The notes under the pieces were generated by a model. That model was not told the origin of the DNA. It made no database searches and was given only the letters and a program-made list of their open reading frames with translations. From Lysobacterales bacterium (GTDB lineage: Bacteria; Pseudomonadota; Gammaproteobacteria; Nevskiales; Salinisphaeraceae): 44,592 nt of DNA. How positions within the stretch are numbered: position 1 is the stretch's first letter; every line of letters starts with the position of its first letter. Shown piece by piece: positions 23,675-28,486 of the stretch. A program made the translations under genes and the position numbers. The stretch is taken from positions 3,694 to 48,285 of the forward strand of contig PBAO01000022.1 in NCBI GenBank assembly GCA_002715985.1, read 5' to 3'.

Positions 23675-24040
23675 ATGACAACCGAAACACCGCAACCACC
23701 GATCGAGACCGACAACGCGCCACAGACCAACGAGCGCAACGTGCTGCTGGTCACCTACGTGCTGTACGGCCTGTCCTGTTTCTTTTTCCTGACCGCGATC
23801 GCCGGCGTGATCGTCAATCACGTGAAACTCGGCGAACTGGCGCGAGGCAGCGTGGCGTGGAGCCATCATCGCTGGCAGATGCGCACATTCTGGTTCACGA
23901 TCTTCTGGAGTGTGGTCTGTCTGATCCTCACGCCCTTCGTGATCGGCTTGCTGGGTTATCTCGTGCTCTGGATCTGGTGTGCCTATCGTTTTGTTCGCGG
24001 TATCGCGGTCTTTGCCGATGGCCGGGCCATGCCCGGCTGA
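23675..24040 (+). CDS. Small membrane protein (DUF4870-like)
   Basis: 121 residues. A polar N-terminal 22 residues is followed by a first hydrophobic helix (about 25-48) and two more close to each other (about 70-105). The SHHRWQMRTFWFTIFWSVV segment and the ending WCAYRFVRGIAVFADGRAMP match a family of small proteobacterial inner-membrane proteins known to me, similar to DUF4870. GAGG lies five bases before the start. The next plus-strand gene starts about 97 bp downstream and could be co-transcribed. Function unknown. Confidence 0.85.
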   Translation: MTTETPQPPIETDNAPQTNERNVLLVTYVLYGLSCFFFLTAIAGVIVNHVKLGELARGSVAWSHHRWQMRTFWFTIFWSVVCLILTPFVIGLLGYLVLWIWCAYRFVRGIAVFADGRAMPG

Positions 24041-24137: not shown

Positions 24138-26117
24138 GTGTTGTCCGACACCCAAGCCGTCTCGCCTGCGCCGCGCCTGGTCGAGGATTTCGACCAAACG
24201 CTGGCACGCCTGGCCGACGCACCGGCGTTTTCGAAATACACGCACCAGAGCCAGCTGCTGGTGCGTACCGCCAAGCTGCTCAAGGCGCCGGGCGGCGTGG
24301 CCGTGCTGGCTGATCGGGCCGAGGGTTTCGATGCGGCCGGCGTATTCGCCGGTACGGACTGGGACATGCCGGCCGGCCTACAGCCCGGGCTCGTCGGTCC
24401 CACGCTGCGCGCCGGCGGCGACGCTGCCACGCTGGAATGCCTGAGCGAGCTGCGCCTGCTGGCCATCGCCGAGGCGCGCACCCCGCATGCCGATCTGTCG
24501 GCCGAGGCCGCACGCACGTTTCTGGCCGAGGCCATGGCGGCCAATCTCGATCTTCTGTTCGGCGAGGCGACCGAGGCCTCGCGCGAACGCTCGGCCGCCG
24601 ATCGCGCGCGGTTGCACGGGCTGTTCGATCTGTTGGCACATCGGCTCGGCATGGGGCTTATCCTCGACCGGCTCCTCGCCGAGGTGGCCGAGATCATGGC
24701 CCAGCGCCCGATCATGCGGGATCGTGCCGTCGCGCTCATTCAAGCCGCCGGCCAGGCACTGACACAAACCCGCGTTGATGACAGCGTGGCCGCGATGACC
24801 CGCCACTGGCTATCGGCCATCGAGGCGCCCAGCGTACTTGCCCAGGCCGAAGGCGATGGCTACGCCGCCGCACTGGCCGCCTGCGACGCCGAACAACTGG
24901 CCGCCGAGGCCGGCGTTTTCGCTGCCTCGATGAACGAAACCGGCTTGGTGGCTCGTGATCACGCCGTTCTGGTTCGACATCTATCCGTGCACGCCCCGGC
25001 CCTGATTCCAGCCGCGCTGGGCTGTAACGCGATCGGCGAGGCCGCCTATGCCGCCCATGCCGCGGCTATCGGTGCGTTGATCGATCAAGCGATCACGCCG
25101 GATACGGCTCATGCCATCTATGGCCTGTCGCGTCTTTTGAGCGCCGGCCTGGTATTGCAAAGGCCGGTGCTGCCGGGCCTGCAGCGCCTGGCGCGCCTCG
25201 AGCTTCATCCCGAGGCCGTGGCTGCGCTCTTGCCCGCGGCACCCGCCGATCACGAGGGCGCGCGTACCCGGCTACTGGCCGGGGCCTGTGCGGTACTCGG
25301 TCAGCCACGCGGCGTGGATCAGGGTCACAACCCCACCTGCCAATCCGCGCGGGCAATCAGCCTCTGGGCACAGAATGATCCGGGCTATCTGCTCGAGCTG
25401 GTGGCGTCCGCGGCCCGTGATCACGATATCGTCATGGATTTCGAGGGGCAGCTCATGCACTCGGCCGGGCTCGATGCAGGCATGGCCAAGACGCTGCATA
25501 CCGAGCTGGATGCGCTCTCGCGCCTGCTCACGCCGCATATCGACCGGCTCTATGTCGAAATGGGTCGACACACGGTCGGCCGGCCGGGCGACGGGCATCG
25601 CTGGATCAACCCGGAAATGCACGGTTGGTGGGTGACTCGCGATTTCGCAGCCCTGATCGAGCTTTCGAGCAATGCGATCACCGATTGCAGCGATTTCATA
25701 CGAGCCTTCTACAGCGCCTATCACCCGGCCTATAACGGCGACCGGGCGCTGGCGTATATCCAGCCGTGCGGCATTGCAGCCACCACATCAAGCGGTGACT
25801 GGATCGGCTGGCACGCAATCGCCATCCAGCGCGTTGCCCGGGACGAGACGGGCGCCTGGCGGGTGTATTTCTACAACCCGAATCGCGACAAGGCCCAGAA
25901 CTGGGGCCATGGCATCGTGACCTCGACCGACGGCCACGGCGAGCTCGAGGGCGAGTCCTCGTTGGTGTTCGAGGATTTTGCCGCGCGCCTGTATGTGTTT
26001 CATTACCGCAGCGCCGAGACCGGTGACCCGGGCCGCGTGCCGGAGGCGACAATCACGTCTGTTCGCGCCGCCATTGCCGCCAGCTGGGGCAGGCATTTTC
26101 AGTGGCACGACCGCTGA
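24138..26117 (+). CDS. Uncharacterised 659-residue protein with possible papain-like Cys-His-Asn site
   Basis: 659 residues from the GTG at 24138; the frame is open back to 23979 but that part overlaps the previous gene and has no coding character. No family was recognised. Residues 1-390 look all-helical and Ala/Leu-rich. The C-terminal part has GHNPTCQSARAISLWA with C401, then GWHAIAIQ with H559, and VYFYNPN with N580. A Cys at the start of a helix, a His on a strand and an Asn or Asp about 20 residues later is the order of papain-like cysteine peptidases and transglutaminases. This catalytic reading is my inference. No signal peptide. A strong bidirectional terminator follows. Confidence 0.8.
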   Translation: MLSDTQAVSPAPRLVEDFDQTLARLADAPAFSKYTHQSQLLVRTAKLLKAPGGVAVLADRAEGFDAAGVFAGTDWDMPAGLQPGLVGPTLRAGGDAATLECLSELRLLAIAEARTPHADLSAEAARTFLAEAMAANLDLLFGEATEASRERSAADRARLHGLFDLLAHRLGMGLILDRLLAEVAEIMAQRPIMRDRAVALIQAAGQALTQTRVDDSVAAMTRHWLSAIEAPSVLAQAEGDGYAAALAACDAEQLAAEAGVFAASMNETGLVARDHAVLVRHLSVHAPALIPAALGCNAIGEAAYAAHAAAIGALIDQAITPDTAHAIYGLSRLLSAGLVLQRPVLPGLQRLARLELHPEAVAALLPAAPADHEGARTRLLAGACAVLGQPRGVDQGHNPTCQSARAISLWAQNDPGYLLELVASAARDHDIVMDFEGQLMHSAGLDAGMAKTLHTELDALSRLLTPHIDRLYVEMGRHTVGRPGDGHRWINPEMHGWWVTRDFAALIELSSNAITDCSDFIRAFYSAYHPAYNGDRALAYIQPCGIAATTSSGDWIGWHAIAIQRVARDETGAWRVYFYNPNRDKAQNWGHGIVTSTDGHGELEGESSLVFEDFAARLYVFHYRSAETGDPGRVPEATITSVRAAIAASWGRHFQWHDR

Positions 26118-26202: not shown

Positions 26203-27429
26203 CTAGACGTAGTAGTCCAGCTCTTCCTGGTGCTTGAGCAGATCTCGTAATTTGTGCGGGTTGTCGCCAAAGAAGAAGACCAGCCCCCAGTGGGTGCCGA
26301 AGGCGTTGCGCTTGGTCACGGTTTCCTGCACCGGCGCGTTCAACTCGTGGAAATCGAAGTATTCGTGCTCGCTGACTTCCTCCGGAATCTCCAGCTTGGA
26401 GACAACGCGCTTGCGCGGGTACACGCCGAAGCAGCCGGCATAGCCCTTGGCGCCGGTGACCTCCTCCGGGAAGAAGGCATCCACCTCCTCCTGCGTGGTC
26501 TTGGGATCGAAGACCAGCATCGAGGCCTGGTAGGCGTTGAACCCGTAGGCACGCTCGATCAGCTCGAAGGCCTTGAAGCCCGGCGGGCGATAGGCCACTT
26601 CGCCGAAGTACATCGTGCCGTCGGAGGTCACGAAGTATTCCGGGTGGATCTGGCCGAACTTGATATCGAAGGTCTTGATCAGCAGCTCGATCTGCTGCGT
26701 GATCAGATGGCGCCAGGATTCCAGCTCCGGCGTGGCCGGCACGAACACCGAATAGCCCAGCGTGACGTACTCCGAGATGTTCAGGAACTGGATCTTGCCG
26801 TCCCAGACCCAGGCTTCGACCGCGAACTCCCAGCCGTCGAGATGGCTTTCCATGAGCAGCGGGTATTCGGCATCCGGGATCTGTTCGATCTCTTCGGCCG
26901 ACTTGATCATGCGATGACCCAGACAGCCGGCCTTGTCGAAGGCCTTGAGATGGATCGGATCTTCGGTATCACCGTCGAGCTTGAGCAGTGTCTGATTCAC
27001 GCGCTTGAAGAACCGATAGACATCGTCGCGCTCGTGCGCTTCCTCGAAGATGCCGACGCGGATACCACCCAGCTGGGCACGACGCTTCATCAGCGCCTTG
27101 TCGCGGAACAACACGGCTTGCCCGTGCAGACGCGGGTTGTCCATCAGCACGGAATTGATTGCCCCTGCCCACTCGACGACTTCCTCGAACAGCGGCACGG
27201 CCGCGTCGACGCCCATATCCTTGAGCTTTTCAGCGATTTCCAGCGAGCGATCGTTCAGGCGTTCGAAGTTCCAGGACACGAACGGAATATCGTGTTCCTT
27301 GCAATAGTCCTCGGCCCACTCCGGGGCAACAACAACATATCGCCGATCGAATCGTTCGGCGGCTTCGATGGCGCCCATCGCCCAGCCAAGCAACGCGATA
27401 TACCCTTTTTCCGGATTTTTTTCTGCCAT
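26203..27429 (-). CDS. ATP-grasp domain protein
   Basis: 408 residues from the ATG at 27429; the frame continues 14 residues further but the family-like sequence begins with MAEKNPEKGYIALLGW. The middle part carries an ATP-grasp fold: LFRDKALMKRRAQLGGIRVG (substrate and nucleotide loop), the strand-rich region YPLLMESHLDGWEFAVEAWVW (shown in parts), and a metal-binding Glu/Asn region near YFGEVAYRPPGFKAFEL. Enzymes of this class join a carboxylate to an amine or thiol using ATP via an acyl-phosphate. The partner substrate is unknown. It could be a carboxylate-amine ligase related to peptide or amino-acid ligases. Convergent with the 659-residue protein gene, monocistronic. Confidence 0.82.
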   Translation of the reverse strand: MAEKNPEKGYIALLGWAMGAIEAAERFDRRYVVVAPEWAEDYCKEHDIPFVSWNFERLNDRSLEIAEKLKDMGVDAAVPLFEEVVEWAGAINSVLMDNPRLHGQAVLFRDKALMKRRAQLGGIRVGIFEEAHERDDVYRFFKRVNQTLLKLDGDTEDPIHLKAFDKAGCLGHRMIKSAEEIEQIPDAEYPLLMESHLDGWEFAVEAWVWDGKIQFLNISEYVTLGYSVFVPATPELESWRHLITQQIELLIKTFDIKFGQIHPEYFVTSDGTMYFGEVAYRPPGFKAFELIERAYGFNAYQASMLVFDPKTTQEEVDAFFPEEVTGAKGYAGCFGVYPRKRVVSKLEIPEEVSEHEYFDFHELNAPVQETVTKRNAFGTHWGLVFFFGDNPHKLRDLLKHQEELDYYV

Positions 27430-27625
27430 GTCGATTCCATCAGACGATGTGTTGCATCGAAGATAGCACACCGACGTGCCGGGCTAACGTCCGGCAAATG
27501 CGGGATCACGGTGCCGCAAGCCTCGGTGGACACCCAGGCCCGGCCGAATGAGGACGCCGGCGGCTCATCGCGCGCTCACCGGCGCCCGAGAGCGTCACCC
27601 GGCGTCGTTCAGGCATGCTCGGCGC

Positions 27626-28486
27626 TCATCCACGCCCGAGTGCTGCATCGAGCACGTCGACGCAGTCATCGTCGATCTTGTGGGTCAGCAGATCGTCGGC
27701 CCGGGTTGTGCCGTAATTGATGGCCATGATCGGCAGCCCTCGGCGCGCGGCTTCGCGAACGAAGCGAAAACCCGACCACACCATCAACGACGAGCCGGCC
27801 ACCAGAACACCGTCCGAGGCCCGGAGCCCGGCCCAGGCACGCTCGACGCGGGATTTGGGCACCGAGCCCCCGAAAAACACGACGTCCGGCTTGAGCACGC
27901 CGCCGCACATCGGGCAGCCGGGCACGTTGAAACACGCGTAGTCGACATCACCCAGCTCGATGTCCCCATCCGGGCGGATCGCATCGGCATCGGTCAACCA
28001 GCCGGCGTTGGCCTCGATCAGCGCGGTCTGCACCTCGTTCCGATGGATGCGATTGCCGCATTCCAGACAGACCACGCGATCCAGACGCCCGTGCAGATCC
28101 ACCACGCCACGGCTGCCCGCGGCCTGATGCAGCCCGTCGACGTTCTGGGTCACCAACAGCGATAACCGCTCGCGCCGACCGAGCCCCGCCAGCGCCTCGT
28201 GACCGGCGTTGGGGCGTGCCCGGGCCACCGGCGGCCAGCCGGCCATACTGCGCGCCCAGTAGCGCTGGCGTTTATCGTGACGTGCAATGAACGCCTGGTG
28301 CTGGATGGGCGTCGCCCCCTTCCAGCCGCCCCGGCGATCACGATAATCGGGAATGCCAGATCCCACGGACAGGCCGGCCCCGCTGAGCACGAACAGCCGC
28401 CGATGCGTATCGATGAAATCACGCAGCGCAGCGACATTATCGTCGCGTGAGACCGCCTGCTCGGTGTCGGCTGCAGTCGTGCTCAA
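27626..28486 (-). CDS. Sirtuin NAD-dependent protein deacylase (Sir2)
   Basis: 286 residues. The sirtuin motifs are in order: GAGLSVGSGIPDYR for NAD binding, TQNVDGLH, the catalytic His in DLHGRLDRVVC, a zinc site with CLEC and CPMC, KPDVVFFGGSVP, and GSSLMVWSGFRFV. It should remove acyl groups from lysine using NAD+ and release nicotinamide. The first 15 residues are a variable extension. The start codon overlaps the HAD gene stop by four bases, so the two are translated as a unit. The class is close to the SIRT4-like/class II bacterial sirtuins by feel, but the acyl specificity is not known. Confidence 0.93.
   Translation of the reverse strand: MSTTAADTEQAVSRDDNVAALRDFIDTHRRLFVLSGAGLSVGSGIPDYRDRRGGWKGATPIQHQAFIARHDKRQRYWARSMAGWPPVARARPNAGHEALAGLGRRERLSLLVTQNVDGLHQAAGSRGVVDLHGRLDRVVCLECGNRIHRNEVQTALIEANAGWLTDADAIRPDGDIELGDVDYACFNVPGCPMCGGVLKPDVVFFGGSVPKSRVERAWAGLRASDGVLVAGSSLMVWSGFRFVREAARRGLPIMAINYGTTRADDLLTHKIDDDCVDVLDAALGRG

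Follow-up and report, generated by a model that had tools for sequence, protein, structure and literature searches.

A papain-fold protein and an ATP-grasp ligase-like partner as a candidate two-enzyme amide-bond pathway

The window analysed here, a single stretch of 44,592 nucleotides of bacterial DNA, carries a gene for a protein with a predicted papain fold next to a convergent gene for an ATP-grasp ligase-like protein. On balance, the evidence tips towards the interpretation that the papain-fold thiol enzyme and the ATP-grasp ligase form a two-enzyme amide-bond pathway. The ATP-grasp partner, which was missed by the initial annotation, is the best clue to function. A family of several hundred relatives in at least four phyla that had no family model can now be described as papain-fold proteins whose ATP-grasp partner is hardly ever missing. 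An orphan family becomes a testable two-gene system, with carriers that are convenient to work with in the laboratory, among them Halomonas, Marinobacter, Rossellomorea and Planococcus.

The papain-like gene and its relatives

The initial annotation had described a large open reading frame at 24138-26117 on the + strand, and the frame is present at these positions. It encodes a papain-like protein of 659 residues, designated 'CHN', that starts at either GTG 24138 or TTG 24141, and the frame is open upstream as far as 23979. The residue numbers used here were counted from 24138.

A paralogue that is 42% identical was found in the same genome (contig C56, 2725-4677, locus L002), with no ATP-grasp ORF in its fetched flank, and most of the same-genus genomes that were searched have two papain-like copies. 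Searches of 146 related genomes and of 398 Pseudomonadota genomes detected relatives in 17 and 12, respectively. One of these 12 matches was a marginal fragment (G472, E 9e-4) that was left out, so that 11 of the 398 genomes were counted as carriers. The genomes of named species contained at least 580 candidate stretches, of which 80 were kept; one of the two search patterns used for these loci contained the Cys motif. Among the matches listed, the kept relatives came from Pseudomonadota, Bacillota, Actinomycetota, Desulfobulbaceae and one cyanobacterial record, and the identity outside the Salinisphaeraceae was approximately 39-47%. The paralogue, together with the relatives in related genomes, in the phylum and in named genomes, indicates that the ORF is a real, widespread gene.

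In a tree of the papain-like proteins, the copy on a Phormidium willei contig (L099) grouped with a Rhodospirillaceae copy, and that on a Chryseobacterium sp. ISL-80 contig (L078) with the Bacillota copies. These two records may be contaminated or mislabelled.

Pfam, NCBIfam, PADLOC and PHROGs gave no family for the window protein, the two rows returned by NCBIfam being at chance level (E 0.37 and 0.5). When 56 members were compared with Pfam, the matches were scattered and weak and none was papain-like, and a profile search against the PDB sequences produced matches at chance level only. The gene was found in none of the 50,697 records of a phage collection. Of the 72,556 records of a plasmid collection, only a Halomonas replicon of 1.8 Mb contained it, and on these counts a phage or plasmid (mobile-element) origin was rejected.

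Candidate catalytic residues

The initial annotation had also proposed a papain-like site composed of C401 in NPTCQSAR, H559 in GWHAIAI and N580 in YFYNPN, and all three residues are at the positions claimed. On the + strand, Cys401, the candidate nucleophile, is encoded by 25338-25340, His559 by 25812-25814 and Asn580 by 25875-25877; all three were assigned from conservation and from the model described below. A fourth invariant residue, Gln395 (25320-25322, + strand), is located six residues before the Cys and is a candidate for the oxyanion hole. The same spacing separates Q19 and C25 of papain.

Conservation of the proposed residues in homologues had been suggested as a check. A whole-protein search, made without the motif, gave 44 relatives, one of which was a contig-end fragment that did not reach the four residues. 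Gln395, Cys401, His559 and Asn580 were all kept in the other 43, so that no covering relative lacked the Cys or the His. The four residues were invariant in alignment A1 (25 rows, the window protein and 24 of the 44 relatives from the whole-protein search) and in all 56 rows of alignment A2, for which one search pattern included the Cys motif. Alignment A2 consisted of the window protein and 55 of the 80 named loci; those left out were mostly close relatives, along with L110, which has one in-frame stop, and L125, where the terminal stop falls inside the range. The position beside the His is not fixed, since residue 558 varied in A2 (W in 31, L in 15, F in 7, R in 2 and Y in 1 of the 56 rows).

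Predicted fold

The full-length AlphaFold2 model had a mean pLDDT of 91.2 and a pTM of 0.86. The N-terminal region (residues 12-388, 24171-25301, + strand) was predicted to be all-helical and solenoid-like, with a weak likeness to alpha-solenoids when the full model was compared by Foldseek and VIA-align. The papain-like catalytic region, as delimited by the VIA-align rows, comprises residues 361-624 (25218-26009, + strand). Helices in the full model continued as far as residue 388 and the papain-like match began at 361 with an early helix, in reasonable accord with the helical domain of about 390 residues described initially. The export signal that the initial annotation had reported as lacking was likewise not apparent to us, no hydrophobic N-terminus being visible in the sequence.

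In the model, Cys401 is at the N-terminus of helix 401-413, His559 is in strand 555-568 and Asn580 directly follows strand 574-579. A predicted fold that separated the three residues had been named as grounds for rejecting the site; the predicted model orders Cys, His and Asn as papain does. Foldseek found no confident match for the full model (best E 0.26), and VIA-align placed 17 calpain cores on top (Z 7.7-8.8). When the catalytic region was modelled alone (residues 361-659, pLDDT 90.0), Foldseek returned calpain-3 (E 1.5e-3, probability 0.98) and the best 50 VIA-align rows were all papain-like (50/50). The Z scores reached 9.4 for calpains, 8.1 for the PCAT1 peptidase, 7.9 for staphopain, 7.8 for Alr0975 and 6.4 for cathepsin B. 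The comparison with peptidase clan CA that had been recommended thus gave a papain fold for the C-terminal region, and we conclude that the C-terminal ~265 residues, as modelled, are a papain fold. The order of Cys-helix, His and Asn, the predicted fold and the Gln six residues before the Cys are features of the papain-like superfamily. The papain-like site is consequently supported by conservation, by the order of the secondary structure elements and by the fold comparison.

A papain fold alone, as predicted here, is no demonstration of catalysis, and the protein might conceivably be a papain-like scaffold that is catalytically dead. The Cys, the His, the Asn and the oxyanion Gln were nevertheless invariant in every covering relative, and a dead scaffold is considered to be very improbable.

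The best structural match was the calpain core (MEROPS C2, PF00648), with a Z score of 9.4 and 4.3-4.6 Å over approximately 208 residues. The two have the order of Cys, His and Asn in common, but the identity is only 13-17%, and the window protein differs in its bacterial origin, in the helical solenoid at its N-terminus and in having an ATP-grasp partner. Membership in the calpain family was rejected, as none of the 56 members gave a profile match to PF00648 (E <= 10). Transglutaminase membership was likewise rejected, none of the 56 having matched the transglutaminase core (PF01841).

The ATP-grasp partner

Clustering of the neighbouring genes showed that a protein of approximately 410 residues that directly adjoins the papain-like gene is a relative of the window ORF at 26203-27471 on the - strand. 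This convergent partner would have 422 residues if translated from GTG 27471, but its relatives begin at about MxEKNPxKG and the true start is therefore probably the ATG at 27423. It was classified as ATP-grasp ligase-like from the pairing and from PF13535 (ATP-grasp_4), which scored 37.1 bits with the copy at locus L052 and 21.1 bits with the window copy, the cut-off being 27. The two copies are 53% identical in alignment A3, which holds 31 of about 70 ATP-grasp copies. The ligases that it matched weakly included L-amino acid ligases (3vot, 4wd3), PRK07206 and dapdiamide synthase. The window partner has Ala within the E-x-A-x-R stretch, at a place where Asn is usual.

By tblastn, the partner adjoined the papain-like gene in 70 of 81 loci, with an identity of 52-97% (100% at the query's own locus). 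In most loci it is upstream and runs in the same direction, whereas the two genes converge in Salinisphaera and diverge in Marinobacter. The 11 loci with no adjacent ATP-grasp gene included about five shortened by contig ends, which come close to one or both sides of the gene (L048, L051, L084, L085 and L104), and six with flanks present and the ATP-grasp gene missing (L054, L057, L083, L109, L120 and L125).

Pairwise identities indicate that the ATP-grasp protein is better conserved than the papain-like protein, 76% versus 43% between Salinisphaera and Halomonas and 84% versus 65% between Halomonas and Streptomyces. The latter values suggest that the pair was spread by horizontal transfer. 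In the tree, the window papain-like copy was close to other Salinisphaera copies, with the Bacillota group next. The C56 paralogue was placed in the half that contains Marinobacter. The window ATP-grasp protein, however, was closest in A3 to copies from Aquisalimonas, Marinobacter and other proteobacteria. Because the two sets of affinities disagree, partners may have been swapped between pairs.

Phylogenetic association of the pair

Among the 398 Pseudomonadota genomes, the ATP-grasp protein (E <= 1e-40) was present in 11, the same 11 that have the full-length papain-like protein (Fisher p 1e-21, a value that ignores kinship). Among 250 genomes from the same class as G539 (Rossellomorea), six had the papain-like protein and five of those six had the ATP-grasp protein. 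In the sixth genome, the only one of the 250 with a single partner, a 31-residue remnant from the start of the ATP-grasp gene, in another frame, is joined to the middle of the papain-like gene at residue 195 (L150, G664:C10); by its sequence, this locus is a deletion relic of the pair. All 15 named genomes carry both genes. A genome with the ATP-grasp protein and no papain-like protein was not encountered among the 648 genomes (398 + 250). The accessible portions of the literature searched contained no description of such a pair.

The association weighs against the protein being just an intracellular protease or a regulatory peptidase, with gene regulation as the sole reason for its place beside the ATP-grasp gene. 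Calpain cores are the closest folds, as such a protein might have, but strict co-occurrence in 16 genomes and in all gene orientations makes this explanation improbable.

A papain-like partner was located within 1.5 kb of 14 of the 17 ATP-grasp copies; the other three had none in the fetched flank, one of these being shortened by a contig end, and all three were from genomes with another pair. These counts bear on the suggestion that the two proteins form an amidotransferase, in which the papain-like protein, as a glutaminase subunit, would supply the NH3 with which the ATP-grasp enzyme amidates a carboxylate. A dependence of this kind would account for an ATP-grasp protein that was never found without the papain-like protein, and halophiles are known to contain small amide solutes. 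The three ATP-grasp copies that lack a papain-like neighbour argue to the contrary, albeit in genomes that have a second pair, and so does the existence of stand-alone papain-like paralogues. We consider an ammonia supply unlikely.

Stand-alone extra papain-like copies occurred in some genomes, and in several the papain-like copies outnumbered the ATP-grasp copies, for example by 4 to 2 in G549 and by 2 to 1 in G553. An excess of this sort might be expected if the ATP-grasp enzyme attached an amino acid or a peptide to proteins from which the papain-like protein, directed by its solenoid, took it off again. Tubulin tyrosine ligase and vasohibin follow a similar logic of addition and removal, and the solenoid-like N-terminal region is in keeping with the idea. 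No protein target or tag gene recurred in the neighbourhood, however, and the strong conservation of both proteins across phyla (up to 84% for the ATP-grasp protein between Halomonas and Streptomyces) is more in line with a small-molecule substrate that does not vary. If the papain-like protein were purely an eraser, moreover, some genomes would be expected to have lost it and retained the ligase, and there was no such case in the 648 genomes. Protein conjugation and deconjugation thus appear rather unlikely. The ligase never occurring without the papain-like protein in these genomes suggests that the pathway depends on the papain-like step, which would not just undo it; transfer or processing is therefore favoured over pure erasure.

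Comparison with known systems

Glutathionylspermidine synthetase/amidase combines an amide-forming ATP-grasp ligase and a papain-like thiol amidase in one fused protein. The pairing of activities is the same as that proposed here, but in the present case there are two genes, of different families. Assignment to this system (CHAP amidase and GspS) was rejected because the genes are separate and the only Pfam family to be matched was ATP-grasp_4, by the partner, with none for the window protein.

The phytochelatin-synthase-like protein Alr0975 (C83, PF05023), which acts on glutathione, itself the peptide product of ATP-dependent ligases, resembled the window protein in its papain fold (Z 7.8). 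Phytochelatin synthase itself, with glutathione as substrate, transfers the acyl group to another amine. Membership in C83 was not upheld, since none of the 56 members matched the PF05023 profile.

Synthesis of NAGGN, a peptide-type osmolyte, employs a GNAT protein, an ATP-grasp ligase and an asparagine-synthase-like protein, and a GNAT gene adjoins the present pair in 17 of 80 loci. Here, the papain-like protein takes the place of the asparagine-synthase-like one, and an osmolyte role is a candidate only.

In the butirosin pathway, BtrJ is the ATP-grasp ligase. BtrH (BtrH_N, PF14399) is described as the papain-like acyltransferase of that pathway (PMC10318531). An ATP-grasp ligase and a papain-like acyltransferase are thus found within one pathway, as proposed here, although carrier-protein or sugar genes did not recur near the papain-like loci. 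The BtrH_N profile matched none of the 56 members, and membership in that family was rejected.

Proposed pathway

The papain-like protein would be a cytoplasmic thiol enzyme that has Cys401-His559-Asn580 as its catalytic residues, Gln395 in the oxyanion hole and an N-terminal helical solenoid. ATP-grasp enzymes form an acyl phosphate first and the amide next. The partner, as a carboxylate-amine ligase, would convert a carboxylate to the acyl phosphate and couple it with an amine. The papain-like enzyme would then take up the acyl group on Cys401, from the amide so formed or from a related donor, and pass it on either to another amine, as in a transpeptidase or acyltransferase, or to water, as in an amidase or peptidase. 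Phytochelatin synthase and BtrH are papain-fold precedents for hydrolysis or transfer of a Cys-bound acyl group (PMC10318531). The product would most likely be a small amide or peptide metabolite for salt or stress adaptation. Points that count against this reading are the 11 loci with no adjacent ATP-grasp gene, the stand-alone papain-like paralogues, and the low PF13535 score and the Ala of the window partner.

A more specific version of the proposal, which we offer tentatively, is an undescribed pathway of salt-tolerant bacteria, spread horizontally between phyla, in which the ATP-grasp protein and a solenoid-bearing papain-like acyltransferase or glutaminase might produce a compatible solute, a new amide or peptide, or else a stress metabolite.

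Possible link to salt

Ectoine synthase (PF06339) scored above the cut-off in 59 of the 398 genomes and in all 11 genomes with the pair; counted by genus, it was present in 7 of 7 genera with the pair, compared with 35 of 213 overall. Its presence in all 11 pair genomes suggests salt adaptation, and many of the named carriers are marine, saline or soda-lake taxa. These sequence-based counts support a link between the pair and a saline lifestyle, an osmotic function not being thereby proven. The genomes are not independent, and what lies behind the ectoine link may be a saline habitat common to the carriers and not a common pathway. A sigma-B-like motif was found upstream of 7 of 42 Bacillota-type ATP-grasp genes and 14 of 383 other ORFs (p 0.002, uncorrected and from related genomes), a hint of a sigma-B-like promoter. 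If the salt link holds, the pair is possibly an overlooked route of osmoadaptation.

Other neighbouring genes

A scan for a third partner covered 104 of 115 listed flanking ORFs, up to two per side, at 32 loci, and the only recurrent family of note was Hist_deacetyl, in 4 of the 104 ORFs. By tblastn, 6 of 81 loci, belonging to Wenzhouxiangella, Desulfobulbaceae and an Alcanivorax MAG, had an HDAC-like gene close to the pair. The HDAC-type loci (L082:9950-11065, L091, L108, L080, L097 and L110) represent separate lineages, and in L082 the HDAC-type gene overlaps the papain-like stop. A SIR2 gene was found in 3 of 81 loci; in the window, a SIR2 deacetylase gene (27626-28486, - strand) is directly upstream of the ATP-grasp gene, as in the S. 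japonica and S. shabanensis loci. The GNAT acetyltransferase gene adjoins the ATP-grasp gene in its 17 loci, nearly all of them from Bacillota (for example L052:5866-6438, - strand). The SIR2, GNAT and HDAC neighbours together give a hint that the substrate is acetylated; as third partners, they are leads only.

A gene for a small membrane protein of 121 residues, with no Pfam match, is located at 23675-24040 on the + strand of the window, and was found upstream in three of the 81 loci, all from Salinisphaera.
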